From Acidobacteriota bacterium (lineage in GTDB: Bacteria > Acidobacteriota > Vicinamibacteria > Vicinamibacterales > CAVVIG01): a stretch of 61,861 nucleotides of DNA. The DNA lies in contig QHWB01000065.1 in the NCBI GenBank assembly GCA_003222395.1, positions 1-61,861 of the forward strand, read 5' to 3'. Below, piece by piece: positions 20,596 through 58,000 of the stretch. A program made the position numbers and the translations under genes. The number at the start of each line of letters is the position of its first letter. Position 1 is the first letter of the stretch. The notes beneath the pieces are model-generated. The model had not been told where the DNA came from. It saw only the letters and a list, made by a program, of their open reading frames with translations, and made no database searches.

Positions 20596-20815
20596 GGGCG
20601 GGAGGGAGAGGACGAGTGGGAGGAGCAGGAGGGGCGGGACAGGCAGAAGGGGTGGGACCGGCAGGAGGGTCGGGACAGGCAGGAGGGGCTGGGAGAGCAG
20701 GGCCGGCGGGACGGGCAGGACGGATCGGATCGCTGCGCGGTTGCCACGGGCGCTTCGCCCTCCAGCCTGTCCAGCCTATCCTGCCCTTCCAGCCCGAATT
20801 GCCGGCGGCGGCGAA
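20596..20815. repeat. Degenerate GGCAGGAGGGGTGGGACC tract and related CCAGCCTGTCCAGCC tail
   Basis: About 150 bp of imperfect 9-18-nt units built from GGAGGG, GGGACAGGCAG and GGACGGGCAGG carry strong purine strand bias. A pyrimidine tail of related units follows, up to about 20800. It separates the phosphoesterase start from nuoI and extends into the nuoI 3' end, where it supplies the last residues and the TAG stop. Confidence 0.7.
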
Positions 20816-21278: not shown

Positions 21279-22610
21279 ATGCAGGGCCCGCAGTTCCTCT
21301 CCGCCGAGCAGATCCTGCTGACGACGCTCGTCGTCAAGCTCGCCGTCATGGCGGCGCTGGCGACGATGCTTGTGCGCTACCGGCGCTTCCGCCACATCCT
21401 CATCTTCGAGCGTCGCGCATGGCCCGATCGGCTGGTGTTTGCGCTCAGCCTTGCGATCCCCCTGACGGCCGGCGTCGCGGCGCGGCTCCTCCTGCACTAC
21501 GATGCTGCCGACTTGACGCTGGAAGGTTCCTTCATCGCCGGCCTCGTCGCGGGACCCTATGCCGGCGCGCTCGTCGGCGCGATGGGCGCGTTTGCCCCGC
21601 TCTTCAACGGCGAGCTGATCGCGCTGCCGTTCGCCGTCGGCTGTGGCTTCGCCGGCGGCGGCCTCCGCGAGCTCTGCCCGAAGGAAGCCATCTGGCACTT
21701 CTCGCCGTTCATCTTCACCAGCCTCCACCGCCGCGCATGGCAGATGATTCGATCGGTGCAGGTCGACTGGCAGGTCGTGCTGCTGCTGGCGCCGGTGACG
21801 CTCGAATTCCTGCGCCAGGGACTCGGGGCGCGGTGGAGCGCGCACCACCGGCTCTTCTACCTTCACGGCGCTCCGCCGGCATCGCCGTGGATGCTGTTCG
21901 TCGTCGTCATGGCGACGGTGCTGTGCGTGGCGACGCCGATCAAGATCTGGAACAACGCGCGCATCGAACACCGGCTGCAGGAGCAGGAGAAGCTGCTGCT
22001 CGCGGCGAAGATCGAGGCGCTCTCGAATCAGATCAACCCGCATTTCCTGTTCAATACCCTGACGTCGATTTCGTCGCTCATCCGCACGAAGCCGGAGACG
22101 GCGCGGATGCTCATCACGAAGCTCTCCGCGCTGCTTCGGCGGCTGATGCGAAGCACCGATCATTTCGTCACGCTGCGCGAGGAGCTCGAGTCGATCGACG
22201 AATATCTCGACATCGAGGTCGTGCGCTTCGGTCCGCAACTGATTGTCGACAAGGAGATCAGCCCCGACACGCTGGACGTCGTCGTGCCAAGCATGATCCT
22301 GCAGCCGCTGATCGAGAATTCGATCAAGCACGGGCTGTCGCGCAAGGTCGGCGGCGGACGGATTACGATCAGGGCGGAGGTTCGCGACGGCCACACGACG
22401 ATCGAAGTCCACGACGACGGCCTCGGCATGAGCGAAGAGCGGCTCGAGCACGCACTCGACGGCGGCATCGGCTTGAGCAACGTCAACGAGCGGCTCCGTA
22501 CGATCTACGGCGCGAACTACTCCCTGAAGCTGACGAGCGTCGCCGGCCGCGGCACCGTCGCGATCGTGAACATTCCTCAATTGACGGTTCCCGAACGGGT
22601 GACGGCGTAA
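21279..22610 (+). CDS. LytS-type membrane sensor histidine kinase
   Basis: The protein has 443 residues. The N-terminal 5TM-Lyt-type region (about 1-230) has several hydrophobic helices, including SFIAGLVAGPYAGALVGAMG. A linker coiled coil leads to the His_kinase domain with LSNQINPHFLFNTLTSISS, where His is the phospho-acceptor. The HATPase_c domain has LQPLIENSIKHGL (N box) and HDDGLGMS (G1). It senses an envelope signal and passes phosphate to the LytTR regulator that begins 1 nt after its stop. Confidence 0.93.
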   Translation: MQGPQFLSAEQILLTTLVVKLAVMAALATMLVRYRRFRHILIFERRAWPDRLVFALSLAIPLTAGVAARLLLHYDAADLTLEGSFIAGLVAGPYAGALVGAMGAFAPLFNGELIALPFAVGCGFAGGGLRELCPKEAIWHFSPFIFTSLHRRAWQMIRSVQVDWQVVLLLAPVTLEFLRQGLGARWSAHHRLFYLHGAPPASPWMLFVVVMATVLCVATPIKIWNNARIEHRLQEQEKLLLAAKIEALSNQINPHFLFNTLTSISSLIRTKPETARMLITKLSALLRRLMRSTDHFVTLREELESIDEYLDIEVVRFGPQLIVDKEISPDTLDVVVPSMILQPLIENSIKHGLSRKVGGGRITIRAEVRDGHTTIEVHDDGLGMSEERLEHALDGGIGLSNVNERLRTIYGANYSLKLTSVAGRGTVAIVNIPQLTVPERVTA

Positions 22611-22611
22611 T

Positions 22612-23409
22612 ATGGATTTGCGGGCGGTGCTGGTTGACGATGAACAGCTGGCGCGCGATGAGCTCGGGTTTCTCCTCGGCCAGGTCGGCGGCGTCGAGAT
22701 CATCGGTCAGGCCGGCAACGGCGTCGAGGCGTTGACGACGATCGACAAGCTGCAGCCGGACGTCGTGTTCCTCGACGTCCAGATGCCCGGGCTGACCGGG
22801 TTCGAAGTCGCGCGGCGGATGCTCGACACCCAGGCGCTGCCGCAGATCATTTTCGTCACGGCGTTCGATCAGCACGCCATCGAGGCGTTCGAGGTGAACG
22901 CCGTCGATTACCTGCTGAAGCCAGTCGATCCGGCGCGTCTCGAGATGGCAGTCGACCGCGCGCGGCGCCGCATCTCGATCGATCGCAAGCTCGACCTGGG
23001 CGAAGCGGCGCCCGGCTTCGTGCAGGCCCAGATCGAAAAGATCGTCCAGCTCGTCGCCGAGCGCCAGCACCGGCGCGATCGGCTGGCGATCAAGGTGGGC
23101 GAGCGGTTCATGCTGGTACAGGCGGAAGAGATCGTCTACGCCTCGCTCGCCGACGACGGGATCGTCGTCGTTACGCTCAAGCACTCGGGCACGTCGAACT
23201 ACCGGACGCTCGACGAGCTGCAGGAACGGCTCGACCCGGGCGTGTTCTGGCGGGTCCACCGATCGCACCTGGTGAACATCAACAAGATCAAGGAGATCGT
23301 CCCTTGGTTCAGTCGGAACTACATCCTGCGGATGAAAGACGAGAAGTCGACGGAAATTCCGGTCAGCCGAACGCAGACGCGCAGGCTCAGGGAGTACCTG
23401 AAGCTGTAA
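22612..23409 (+). CDS. LytTR-family response regulator
   Basis: The protein has 265 residues. The receiver domain (1-120) has the acidic pocket VDDEQLARDE, phospho-Asp in DVVFLDVQMPGL and Lys in NAVDYLLKPVD. A helical linker precedes a LytTR DNA-binding domain (about 160-262, with RFMLVQAEEIVYASLADDG, FWRVHRSHLVNINKIKEI and PVSRTQTRRLREYL). It is tightly coupled to the LytS kinase. Its stop abuts the 39-bp repeat array. Confidence 0.95.
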   Translation: MDLRAVLVDDEQLARDELGFLLGQVGGVEIIGQAGNGVEALTTIDKLQPDVVFLDVQMPGLTGFEVARRMLDTQALPQIIFVTAFDQHAIEAFEVNAVDYLLKPVDPARLEMAVDRARRRISIDRKLDLGEAAPGFVQAQIEKIVQLVAERQHRRDRLAIKVGERFMLVQAEEIVYASLADDGIVVVTLKHSGTSNYRTLDELQERLDPGVFWRVHRSHLVNINKIKEIVPWFSRNYILRMKDEKSTEIPVSRTQTRRLREYLKL

Positions 23410-24386
23410 GCGAACGCTCGCCTGAAAGGCTCGCGCTACCCGGTGAACCAGAACGCCCGGCTGAAGGGCTCGCGCTACCCGGTGAACCAGAACGCCCGGC
23501 TGAAAGGCTCGCGCTACCCGGTGAACCAGAACGCCCGGCTGAAAGGCTCGCGCTACCCGGTGAACCAGAACGCCCGGCTGAAGGACTCGCGCTACCCGGT
23601 GAATCAGGACGCCCGGCTGAAGGGCTCGCGCGGCCACCCGAATCGGAACGCTCGTCTGAGACGCAGGCGGTACGGGCCGAACCAGAGCGCTCGCCTGAAC
23701 AGCTCGCCCCGCCGGCCGAACCAGAGCGCCCGCTTGAAGGGGTCGCGCCACCGGCCGAAGCGGAACGCTCCCTCGAATCGACAGCACATGTAGCGCGAGG
23801 CTTTCAGCCGAGCGAGGCGATCGCAGTCGACGCGCCCGATTTGCGCCTGACGAGTCCGGGCATCCGCCTCGCGCAGGTAAAGGAGGAGCTAATCGCGTGG
23901 GTGAAGACGCTCGTCTCTGCCGCCGTTTACGCGATTCTCATCGTCACGTTCGGTTTCCAGATCGCGCGCGTCGAGGGCCAGAGCATGGCGCCGACGCTCG
24001 AAGATCAGGATCGGCTCGTCGTGAACAAGCTCGTGTACCGCATCGGCGAGCCGCGACGCGGCGACATCGTCATGCTGTACTATCCGCTGAACCCCGAAAA
24101 ATCATTCGTCAAACGCGTTATCGCCGAAGAAGGCGACACGGTGCGCATCCTCGACGGCCGCGTGTACGTGAACGACATCCCGCTGAAGGACGATTACGTC
24201 CCGACGGAGTTCCGGAGCCACGACGACTGGGGACCGCAGGTCATCCCGGAGGGCTACTACTTCGTGATGGGCGATCACCGCAACAACAGCTCGGACAGCC
24301 GTCACTGGGGCATGGTGCCGAAGAAGTACATCATCGGGAAGGTGCAACTGCGCTGGTGGCCCGTGCCGAGCGCGCGGGTCTTCTGA
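23304..24386 (+). CDS. lepB: Signal peptidase I with a repeat-encoded N-terminal extension
   Basis: The catalytic core is clear: one membrane helix (KTLVSAAVYAILIVTFGFQIA), Ser in VEGQSMAPTLEDQD and the general-base Lys in KSFVKRVIAEEGD, then GDHRNNSSDSRHWG. It cleaves Sec and Tat signal peptides at the membrane. The frame is open back to a TTG at 23304, inside the preceding regulator gene and 8 nt after AAGGAG. There is no ATG, GTG or TTG inside the 39-bp array itself. Later candidates are TTG 23841 and GTG 23901, the latter 12-14 nt after AGGAGGAG and giving a 161-residue minimal enzyme. With the upstream start, about 120 residues of Glu/Pro/Ala repeats (ERPAERLALPGEP type) precede the helix. 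Function is certain, the start is not. Confidence 0.85.
   Translation: MVQSELHPADERREVDGNSGQPNADAQAQGVPEAVSERSPERLALPGEPERPAEGLALPGEPERPAERLALPGEPERPAERLALPGEPERPAEGLALPGESGRPAEGLARPPESERSSETQAVRAEPERSPEQLAPPAEPERPLEGVAPPAEAERSLESTAHVARGFQPSEAIAVDAPDLRLTSPGIRLAQVKEELIAWVKTLVSAAVYAILIVTFGFQIARVEGQSMAPTLEDQDRLVVNKLVYRIGEPRRGDIVMLYYPLNPEKSFVKRVIAEEGDTVRILDGRVYVNDIPLKDDYVPTEFRSHDDWGPQVIPEGYYFVMGDHRNNSSDSRHWGMVPKKYIIGKVQLRWWPVPSARVF
23412..23814 (+). repeat. 39-bp tandem array of repeat family 1 with inverted end copy
   Basis: Nine consecutive 39-nt units (23412-23762) each begin GAACGCNCG and contain CTGAAAGGCTCGCGCTACCC or a variant. The first five are nearly identical and the last four have diverged. 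After a partial tenth unit, an inverted core copy (GTAGCGCGAGGCTTTCAG) closes the element at 23790-23814. Because 39 is a multiple of three, the lepB frame stays open throughout (13 residues per unit). Confidence 0.9.
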
Positions 24387-24387
24387 A

Positions 24388-24600
24388 CACCGTCGGGATT
24401 CGGGATGCGGGATTTGGGATTCGAAAAGTCAAAAGCCATAGCGCATGATCGGATCACAGACTCCGAGCGAATTGCGATCGTCGAGCCAATCTCGAATCCT
24501 GAGCGGCGGACTGCGAATCGCGAGCACATCCCGGACCCTCAGCGGGTCCCACAGCCGGAGCGAATCCCGAATCCCGCATCCCAAATCCCGACGCGGTACA
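24388..24600 (+). repeat. Degenerate GGGATTTGGGATTCGG tracts, inverted pair
   Basis: A plus-strand tract (GGGATTCGGGATGCGGGATT, about 24394-24425) is followed by AATCCTGAGCGG- and AATCCCGAATCCCGC-type units reading the other way up to about 24595. The related motif ATTTGGGATTCGGGATTCG is at 32021-32040. The tracts encode the N-terminal region of the CDF transporter. Confidence 0.65.
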
Positions 24601-25457
24601 AAGAGGTCGCGCGCGTCCTGATTCGCGTGTTCGCGTTGAACCTCGCGGTGGCGCTCGCCAAGATCATATTCGGCTACTCCAGCGGGGCGATCAGCGTCCT
24701 TTCGGACGGGTTTCATTCGCTGACTGACGGCGCGTCGAACGTCGTCGGCCTGGTGGGCGTCTACGCCGCGCGCCAGCCTCCCGACGCGGATCATCCGTAC
24801 GGGCATCGCAAGTACGAAACGGTGGCCGCCTCGGTCGTCACCCTGTTCCTGCTGCTGGTCGTCATCGAAGTACTGCGCAATGCCGTCGACAACCTGACCG
24901 GTCGCACGAGCGCTCACGAAATCACATTCGGCAGCTTCGCCGTCATGCTCGTCACCGTCGTGATCAACCTCTTCGTAGTCATGTACGAATCGCGCGAAGG
25001 CAATCGACTTGGAAGCGAGGTTCTCCTCGTCGACGCGACGCAGACGCGCGGCGACGTGTGGTCGTCGTTGACCGTGATCGGAGCGCTCGTCGGCGCGCGC
25101 GCCGGGTTGCCGGTGCTCGATCCGCTCGCGGCGCTGGTCGTCGCTGCGTTCATCGCGTTCTCCGGATACAAGGTCGCGCAGACGACGACGCGGATTCTGA
25201 GCGACCGCATCGTGATGGCCGAATCGGACCTGATGAAGGTCGTCATGAGCGTGCCCGGCGTCCTGGGATGCCATCAGATTCGCACGCGCGGATCGTCGGA
25301 TCACGTGTTCCTCGACCTGCACGTCTGGCTGCCGTCCGCGATGCCGCTCGTCGACGCGCACGCGCTGTCGCACGTCGTCAAGGATCGGTTGATGGCGCGG
25401 TATCCTCAGATCGCCGATGCGATCATCCACATCGAACCCCCACCCAATATTTCTTGA
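24405..25457 (+). CDS. Cation diffusion facilitator family metal-ion exporter
   Basis: The protein has 350 residues from the ATG at 24405. The CDF core starts near residue 68 (VARVLIRVFALNLAVALAKI), with metal-site helices SVLSDGFHSLTDGASN and DATQTRGDVWSS, HPYGHRKYE, and a C-terminal cytoplasmic domain with HVFLDLHVWLP. It exports divalent metal ions such as Zn2+ or Mn2+ by proton exchange. The first 60 or so residues (DLGFEKSK... NPERRTANREHIPDPQ) are repeat-encoded. There is no alternative start between TTG 24414 and the first helix, so the extension is either translated or the start is unconventional. Confidence 0.88.
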   Translation: MRDLGFEKSKAIAHDRITDSERIAIVEPISNPERRTANREHIPDPQRVPQPERIPNPASQIPTRYKEVARVLIRVFALNLAVALAKIIFGYSSGAISVLSDGFHSLTDGASNVVGLVGVYAARQPPDADHPYGHRKYETVAASVVTLFLLLVVIEVLRNAVDNLTGRTSAHEITFGSFAVMLVTVVINLFVVMYESREGNRLGSEVLLVDATQTRGDVWSSLTVIGALVGARAGLPVLDPLAALVVAAFIAFSGYKVAQTTTRILSDRIVMAESDLMKVVMSVPGVLGCHQIRTRGSSDHVFLDLHVWLPSAMPLVDAHALSHVVKDRLMARYPQIADAIIHIEPPPNIS

Positions 25458-57783: not shown

Positions 57784-58000
57784 TGAACGCTCGGCTGAAA
57801 GCCTCGCGCTACACCGGCACGAGATTCGTGCGGCGAGCCTTTCAGGTGAGAGATCGGTAGGGCGAGCCTTTCAGGTGAGAGAGATCGGTAGGGCGAGCCT
57901 TTCAGGTGGGAGATCGGTAGGGCGAGCCTTTCAGGTGAGAGATCGGTAGGGCGAGCCTTTCAGGTGAGAGATCGGTAGGGCGAGCCTTTCAGGCGAGCCA
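57784..58000 (+). repeat. Palindromic repeat family 1, inverted copy plus six direct copies
   Basis: One inverted core (GCTCGGCTGAAAGCC, CTCGCGCTAC) is followed by six direct copies of GGCGAGCCTTTCAGG at 29-31-nt spacing, linked by TGAGAGATCGGTAG. The copies are consecutive without unique spacers. The last copy runs into AGGAGAAG, the ribosome site of the quinoprotein gene. Confidence 0.85.

Follow-up and report, generated by a model that had tools for sequence, protein, structure and literature searches.

The DNA that we analysed, referred to below as the window, is a stretch of 61,861 nucleotides from an Acidobacteriota bacterium, in which a tandem repeat array lies at the junction between a LytTR regulator gene and the signal peptidase gene lepB. 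The features of the locus are as follows, with two possible starts that had been offered by an earlier sequence-only reading.

21279-22610, plus strand: upstream histidine kinase gene (His_kinase PF06580, HATPase_c)
22612-23409, plus strand: LytTR response regulator gene (Response_reg and LytTR), with its TAA stop at 23407-23409
23290-23295, plus strand: AAGGAG, proposed Shine-Dalgarno (SD) sequence inside LytTR, 8 nt before TTG 23304
23304-23306, plus strand: TTG, the proposed LepB start, in the -1 frame of LytTR
23304-23409, plus strand: overlap of the LytTR 3' end and the proposed lepB 5' end, 106 nt
23304-24386, plus strand: proposed full lepB open reading frame, 360 amino acids
23412-23762, plus strand: nine REP-derived 39-bp units, each 13 codons in the lepB frame
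23790-23814, minus strand: inverted REP core copy behind the array, also within the linker
23841-23843, plus strand: TTG offered earlier as a start
23856-23951, plus strand: predicted LepB membrane helix, residues 185-216 (pLDDT 66-94 in these blocks)
23892-24359, plus strand: Peptidase_S26 domain (PF10502; TIGR02227, signal peptidase I)
23901-23903, plus strand: GTG offered earlier as a start, with AAGGAGG 14 nt upstream

LepB matches TIGR02227 with 163.7 bits (cut-off 47) and PF10502 with 166.4 bits. Ser227 and Lys270 (numbering from 23304) are invariant across 29 aligned sequences, and we take them to be the Ser/Lys dyad motif of type I signal peptidases. With its full S26 domain and one predicted N-terminal helix, LepB resembles this class of enzymes and is a predicted peptidase, but it differs from type I signal peptidases in general by a long, fast-changing Ala/Pro-rich N-terminal linker, which here contains the REP array. 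Structure prediction from the 29 sequences gave a poor model overall (mean pLDDT 50, pTM 0.25), and only two of its features are used here: residues 1 to 184 are predicted to have no regular secondary structure, and they are followed by a helix at residues 185 to 216. Presumably the usual signal peptidase topology applies, which would place the linker on the cytoplasmic side of the membrane.

The array starts two bases past the LytTR stop and takes up 351 bp of the 61.9-kb contig. In TRF, 23412-23631 came out as an array with a 39-bp period (5.6 copies, 95% matches, score 384), and a second, less strict row of 9.1 copies runs to 23770. When the array was cut at 39 bp, units 1 to 5 agreed with the consensus at 37, 38, 39, 39, and 36 of the 39 positions and units 6 to 9 at 29, 28, 28, and 28, and the following 39 bp at only 16. 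All nine units keep the period with zero indels, and units 3 and 4 are identical. The TRF match and the cutting at 39 bp thus bear out the sequence-only reading, which had described nine units of 39 bp. Its further statements, that the lepB frame stays open across all units and that no start codon lies within the array, also agree with our results: the frame runs uninterrupted out of LytTR as far as the lepB stop and has no ATG, GTG, or TTG between 23304 and 23841. The array had been drawn as far as 23814; the direct units are real but end at 23762, and 23790-23814 is an inverted core and not a direct unit. The proposed recent expansion is supported by the five near-identical units and by a single REP unit found at the same distance past the LytTR stop in genome G010 (locus L015), where 27 of 36 positions are identical, compared with 17 in the next best locus. 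In the lepB frame GC3 is 0.54 for the array, compared with 0.87 for the core of LepB, and the substitutions in the array are spread over the three codon positions as 18/13/18, so we see no sign of selection on the repeat peptide. A peptide translated from the array would be of the RLALPGEPERPAE type.

The repeat itself fits a GTAG REP together with its predicted RAYT. The core is found at 594 places in the 7.74-Mb genome when up to 3 mismatches are allowed, compared with 9 places for a reversed control pattern. The element had been called an interspersed palindromic repeat, of which the first part holds and the second only loosely, as the palindrome is imperfect. The consensus core folds as an imperfect hairpin that is only slightly better than shuffled sequences (-5.7 kcal/mol, z -1.77; 11 of 200 shuffles were as good). 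The commonest unit of the lepB array has lost part of the stem and has a fold z of +1.04. The reverse strand of the core begins with GTAG, and GTAG stands at one end of the unit, GTAGCGCGAG..., in the units around the RAYT gene and at 23790-23814. The sole Y1_Tnp (PF01797) match of the genome sits between inverted REP arrays. This RAYT-like gene (L159, 780-2060) has such an array on both sides, the left one with a 37-bp period. Among 60 genomes, the source genome included, the core with at most 1 mismatch occurs 420 times here, 203 times in G026, 71 times in G024, 47 times in G010, and 22 times in G016; the other 55 genomes have 0 to 6 copies. Because 43 of the 60 genomes carry a Y1_Tnp match, the presence of such a gene alone does not predict REP copy number. 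An Rfam search of the window found one tRNA and nothing else.

The GTAG REP/RAYT systems described in the available text of PMC3733652 share the GTAG end, apparently the imperfect hairpin, the hundreds of copies, the tandem clusters, the occurrence of some units inside open reading frames, and the placement of a RAYT-like gene between REP arrays. The hosts named in that text are Proteobacteria, Cyanobacteria, Chloroflexi, and the PVC group, whereas the host here is an acidobacterium; REPs have been predicted in three other Acidobacteriota, according to PMC12306157. The stretches encoded by REPs are quoted at 43 to 82 amino acids (PMC3733652, same text), and the 117 amino acids at this locus would exceed that range. 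Rickettsia palindromic elements (RPEs) offer a second parallel, as these palindromic repeats are read in frame inside unrelated proteins, N termini included; as outlined in the same text, they carry a CGTC tag and lack a transposase of their own, in contrast to the combination of GTAG, RAYT, and tandem array seen here.

REP arrays also lie in other open reading frames of the genome. We surveyed the window and 20 other stretches (385 kb, picked mostly around core matches), and these 21 stretches contain 17 same-strand clusters of at least three REP units, with spacings of 21 to 45 bp apart from a single gap of 72. In 7 of the 17 clusters every spacing is a multiple of three. The Pfam domain search covered six of the seven (all but L182), and each of the six lies in one open frame with a domain. 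The six are the following.

Window: REP array in the LepB open frame
L174, 5388-7418, minus strand: NuoM-like protein, array in the C-terminal tail, 3n period, in frame
L173, 3399-5726, minus strand: FMN oxidoreductase, array in the C-terminal tail, 3n period, in frame
L175, 3015-4718, plus strand: PhzF-like protein, array before the domain in the signal-peptide region, 3n period
L178, 2986-4977, minus strand: Omp85-like protein, array before the POTRA domain in the signal-peptide region, 3n period
CofH-like protein: array just ahead of an ATG and perhaps untranslated

Among the ten other clusters, two three-unit ones keep an open frame throughout, and one of these (L185) precedes the likely ATG of an alcohol dehydrogenase. 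The window also holds a second tandem array of the REP core (57832-57997, 29-bp period), which is closed in every frame. If LepB is translated through its array, the locus would show in which coding DNA REPs are able to expand, namely in linkers and tails and by steps of three.

Relatives give an indication of where LepB begins. The compared loci come from contigs titled Vicinamibacterales and from others, with one locus kept per identical junction, and the counts take no account of how closely the genomes are related. Several contigs are titled so, and the order is taken to be Vicinamibacterales. Two duplicates (L077 and L078) and the second lepB match of L044 were left out, and L042, in which the LytTR stop is misread, was left out of the sets of 68 and 115 loci. 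lepB lies directly behind LytTR in 120 of 125 distinct LytTR loci. In the five others, three loci stop at the contig end (L100, L117, and L238), L194 runs out of contig after 419 bp, and lepB is apparently deleted in L195 (genome G008), where a short stretch resembling the LepB C terminus is left, followed by a cation efflux gene. In 116 of the 120 linked loci lepB is in the -1 phase relative to LytTR. The linkers of 115 loci range from 24 to 165 codons and have 56 distinct lengths, so this phase has outlasted many changes in length. Read in the lepB frame, their 6,860 codons are free of stops, while the other two frames have 93 and 74, the count of 93 excluding the LytTR stops. Only a start overlapping the LytTR stop could lie behind LytTR and still hold the phase, and in 78 of the 115 loci this stop is TAG or TAA, which cannot form such a start. 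The overlap is free of stops in the lepB frame in 111 of the 115 loci, and all four exceptions have an ATGA start. In 16 of the 115 loci the linker has no ATG, GTG, or TTG at all, and 5 of these 16 have none as far as the helix. As an observation apart, the LytTR stop is TAG in 71 of the 115 lepB-linked loci and in 14 of 40 unlinked ones.

At least three other linkers contain unrelated tandem repeats (27 bp in L023, 45 bp in L025, and 12 bp in L029), so growth by repeats recurs in lepB linkers. LepB copies encoded away from LytTR, including L058 in the source genome, have similar Pro/Ala-rich fronts behind ordinary ATGs. In four linked loci with an offset of 1, stops in the lepB frame precede the LytTR stop and ATGs follow it closely; these and the loci with an ATGA start also carry Pro-rich N-terminal stretches behind ordinary ATGs. 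The earlier reading had proposed that a proven start at 23901, together with close relatives lacking any array, would point to an intergenic repeat. We indeed find the array in none of the relatives, but they have other in-frame linkers in its place.

A candidate start site is conserved inside LytTR. In 115 of 115 loci, a Trp codon (TGG) some 35 codons short of the LytTR stop is preceded by a codon with T, C, or G as its last base, which creates a candidate lepB-frame start codon 8 nt after AAGGAG (TTG in 58 loci, CTG in 45, and GTG in 12). The codons that spell AAGGAG are Lys AAG and Glu GAG, each in 114 of 115 loci. For Glu, the usage of GAG is 0.70, and Acidobacteriota controls with unlinked LytTR genes have GAG in 5 and GAA in 35 of 40 loci. 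The Pro codon is CCT, which gives TTG, in 39 of 68 loci against a usage of 0.04, and in 3 of 40 unlinked controls; on a centroid fold, it is possible that CCT is retained because of a hairpin that covers the site and not because it gives TTG. CCG is rare at this codon in the linked loci but also in the controls (6 of 40), so its rarity is not specific. Between AAGGAG and the start, the rare Ile codon ATA occurs in 48 of 115 loci (usage about 6%, from 68 loci), and the Ile codon of the window (23296-23298) is ATC. In 57 of 68 loci no other in-frame start has SD pairing as strong as that of the nested site. This does not hold for the window, where AAGGAGG precedes GTG 23901 (energy -9.8, compared with -8.5 at TTG 23304).

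The overlap stays open beyond what codon usage predicts. An exact calculation from codon usage, which took in 67 of the 68 loci for the overlap and 66 for the part upstream, gives 19.8 loci with a stop in the overlap and one was seen, although the same model over-predicts in the 40 unlinked controls as well (26 seen, 33.2 expected). A synonymous T that would make a stop was used at 1 of 591 sites in the overlap and at 150 of 1,120 elsewhere, compared with 37 of 311 and 97 of 587 in the controls. Part of this avoidance is general, as upstream of the site the figures are 33 of 529 and 162 of 1,366, and the four offset-1 loci, in which that frame is not the frame of lepB, have 0 of 36 and 11 of 62. 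Synonymous diversity does not drop significantly across the whole overlap (p = 0.15 in 66 of the 68 loci, with relatedness ignored), so the 35 residues of the overlap seem to be little constrained beyond staying open.

The ATGA loci provide a natural control. In eight loci, all from one family (f15), an ATGA start lies across the LytTR stop, and the overlapping frame is closed in four of the eight, compared with none of the 107 others (Fisher p of 1e-5, relatedness ignored). A ninth locus (L194), cut by the contig end, has a stop in the overlap and AAAGAG in place of AAGGAG, and the sole GAA at the Glu codon belongs to this class (L192). It thus seems that the nested frame is retained only in the absence of an ATGA that takes its place. 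As the eight loci are one family, few evolutionary events may be involved. In these lineages the stretch behind LytTR seems to be the natural N terminus of LepB. If the nested start is right, this family offers a natural case for comparing how extended overlaps between genes arise or are given up.

Taken over all loci, we consider it probable, at about 0.78, that LepB begins at UUG 23304, nested inside LytTR. The array, the open frame, the phase lock, the conserved site, and the REP/RAYT identity can be read from the sequence itself; from these we infer initiation at 23304 and its coupling to the translation of LytTR. The weak UUG, in the -1 frame of the 3' part of LytTR and served by AAGGAG with an 8-nt spacer, would give a LepB whose first 35 residues are overprinted on LytTR. 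After these residues would come an unstructured Ala/Pro-rich linker, then a single membrane helix, and last an ordinary catalytic domain of the S26 type. Insertions into the linker would be tolerated as long as they hold the phase and create no stop. A REP probably inserted just past the LytTR stop before the source genus and G010 split, and in the source genome it would then have grown tandemly, by steps of 39 bp (13 codons), to nine units. With a start inside LytTR, the array would lengthen by 117 residues an Ala/Pro-rich linker that was variable to begin with, so the array is probably read as part of the floppy front end of LepB, where the repeat peptide is most likely passive cargo without a function. 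The sequence-only reading had considered a gain of about 120 Glu/Pro-rich residues by lepB, and we favor this, with the change that they would be added to a long, variable, in-phase linker and that the start would lie in LytTR. One point against the nested start is that it would be CTG in 45 of the 115 loci, 39 of them without ATGA. CTG is a poor start codon in bacteria, and these loci make the nested start demanding.

The other starts that had been offered, TTG 23841 and GTG 23901, do exist, but the list lacked TTG 23304. Among the 21 loci that reach the first codon, TTG is found in the source genome only, and at the second position GTG is found in 18 of 68 loci and ATG or TTG in 5 more; as these codons vary among relatives, we rejected both as the conserved start. 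It is unlikely, but the best of the alternatives, that LepB nevertheless starts at 23901 (or 23841) in this genome and that its array is a cluster of REPs between two cistrons, left untranslated. The SD pairing of GTG 23901 is the stronger one, a product from there would retain the helix and the catalytic domain, REPs are common just past stop codons (available text of PMC3733652), and the array has no coding signature inside. Against this, the SD spacing is 14 nt, the 39-bp period has been kept without an indel, and a downstream start would leave the phase and openness of the linkers in the other loci unexplained.

We judge it considerably less likely that a programmed -1 frameshift in LytTR produces a LytTR-LepB fusion without a separate start. 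Such an event would mean that most of an order has a response regulator/signal peptidase fusion tethered to the membrane, and that the tether includes the REP array here, which is equally improbable. It would account for the -1 phase and for a frame that is open into LytTR, and an SD-like AAGGAG stands ahead of CCY TGG, with CCY in 102 of 115 loci. Re-pairing of the P-site tRNA, however, needs a C before CCY, which is guaranteed only with Val GTC; this codon is present in 80 of 115 loci and GTG, GTA, or GTT in the other 35, so the slippery codon is not conserved. In the one sequence that was folded (121 nt, pseudoknots outside the fold) there is no strong downstream structure (z -1.0), and the eight ATGA and four offset-1 loci appear to make LepB with the same kind of linker from a start of its own. 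The least likely alternative is that the unit number is an artefact of a draft assembly in 118 contigs in which two units are identical, as units 6 to 9 have diverged and are each unique, the core also forms arrays elsewhere in the genome with different spacings, and the array is 351 bp long and inside a large contig; an error in the unit count would leave the argument for the start site untouched.

A nested start of LepB would belong to the known class of unidirectional overlapping genes with translational coupling, in which, according to PMC3887535, the downstream start lies in the upstream gene and its SD sequence is kept (PMC6728339 and PMC12548453 are further entries on the subject). It would differ from these in the 106-nt out-of-frame overlap kept through an order, the UUG and CUG starts, and the hypervariable linker, with one lineage among the relatives having the short ATGA form instead. 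Among the titles and first lines of abstracts that a search of open-access papers gave, none describes the LytTR/lepB junction. REPs inside genes are already known, and what would be new is the widely conserved nested UUG/CUG start. If this reading is true, a regulator gene would harbor the weak start from which a signal peptidase is made, and lepB models called from the nearest ATG, GTG, or TTG would be too short at the N terminus in this order. Because conserved CTG starts are unusual in bacteria, the lepB loci would then be a ready test bed for such starts.

Two further repeats lie close to this locus. The next gene, encoding a cation efflux protein (24405-25457, Pfam domain from residue 72), opens with about 65 Asn/Pro/Glu-rich residues that come from another repeat, of the GGGATTCGGGAT type, at 24397-24600, and a G-rich tandem repeat with periods of 18, 36, and 54 bp is found at 20596-20728.
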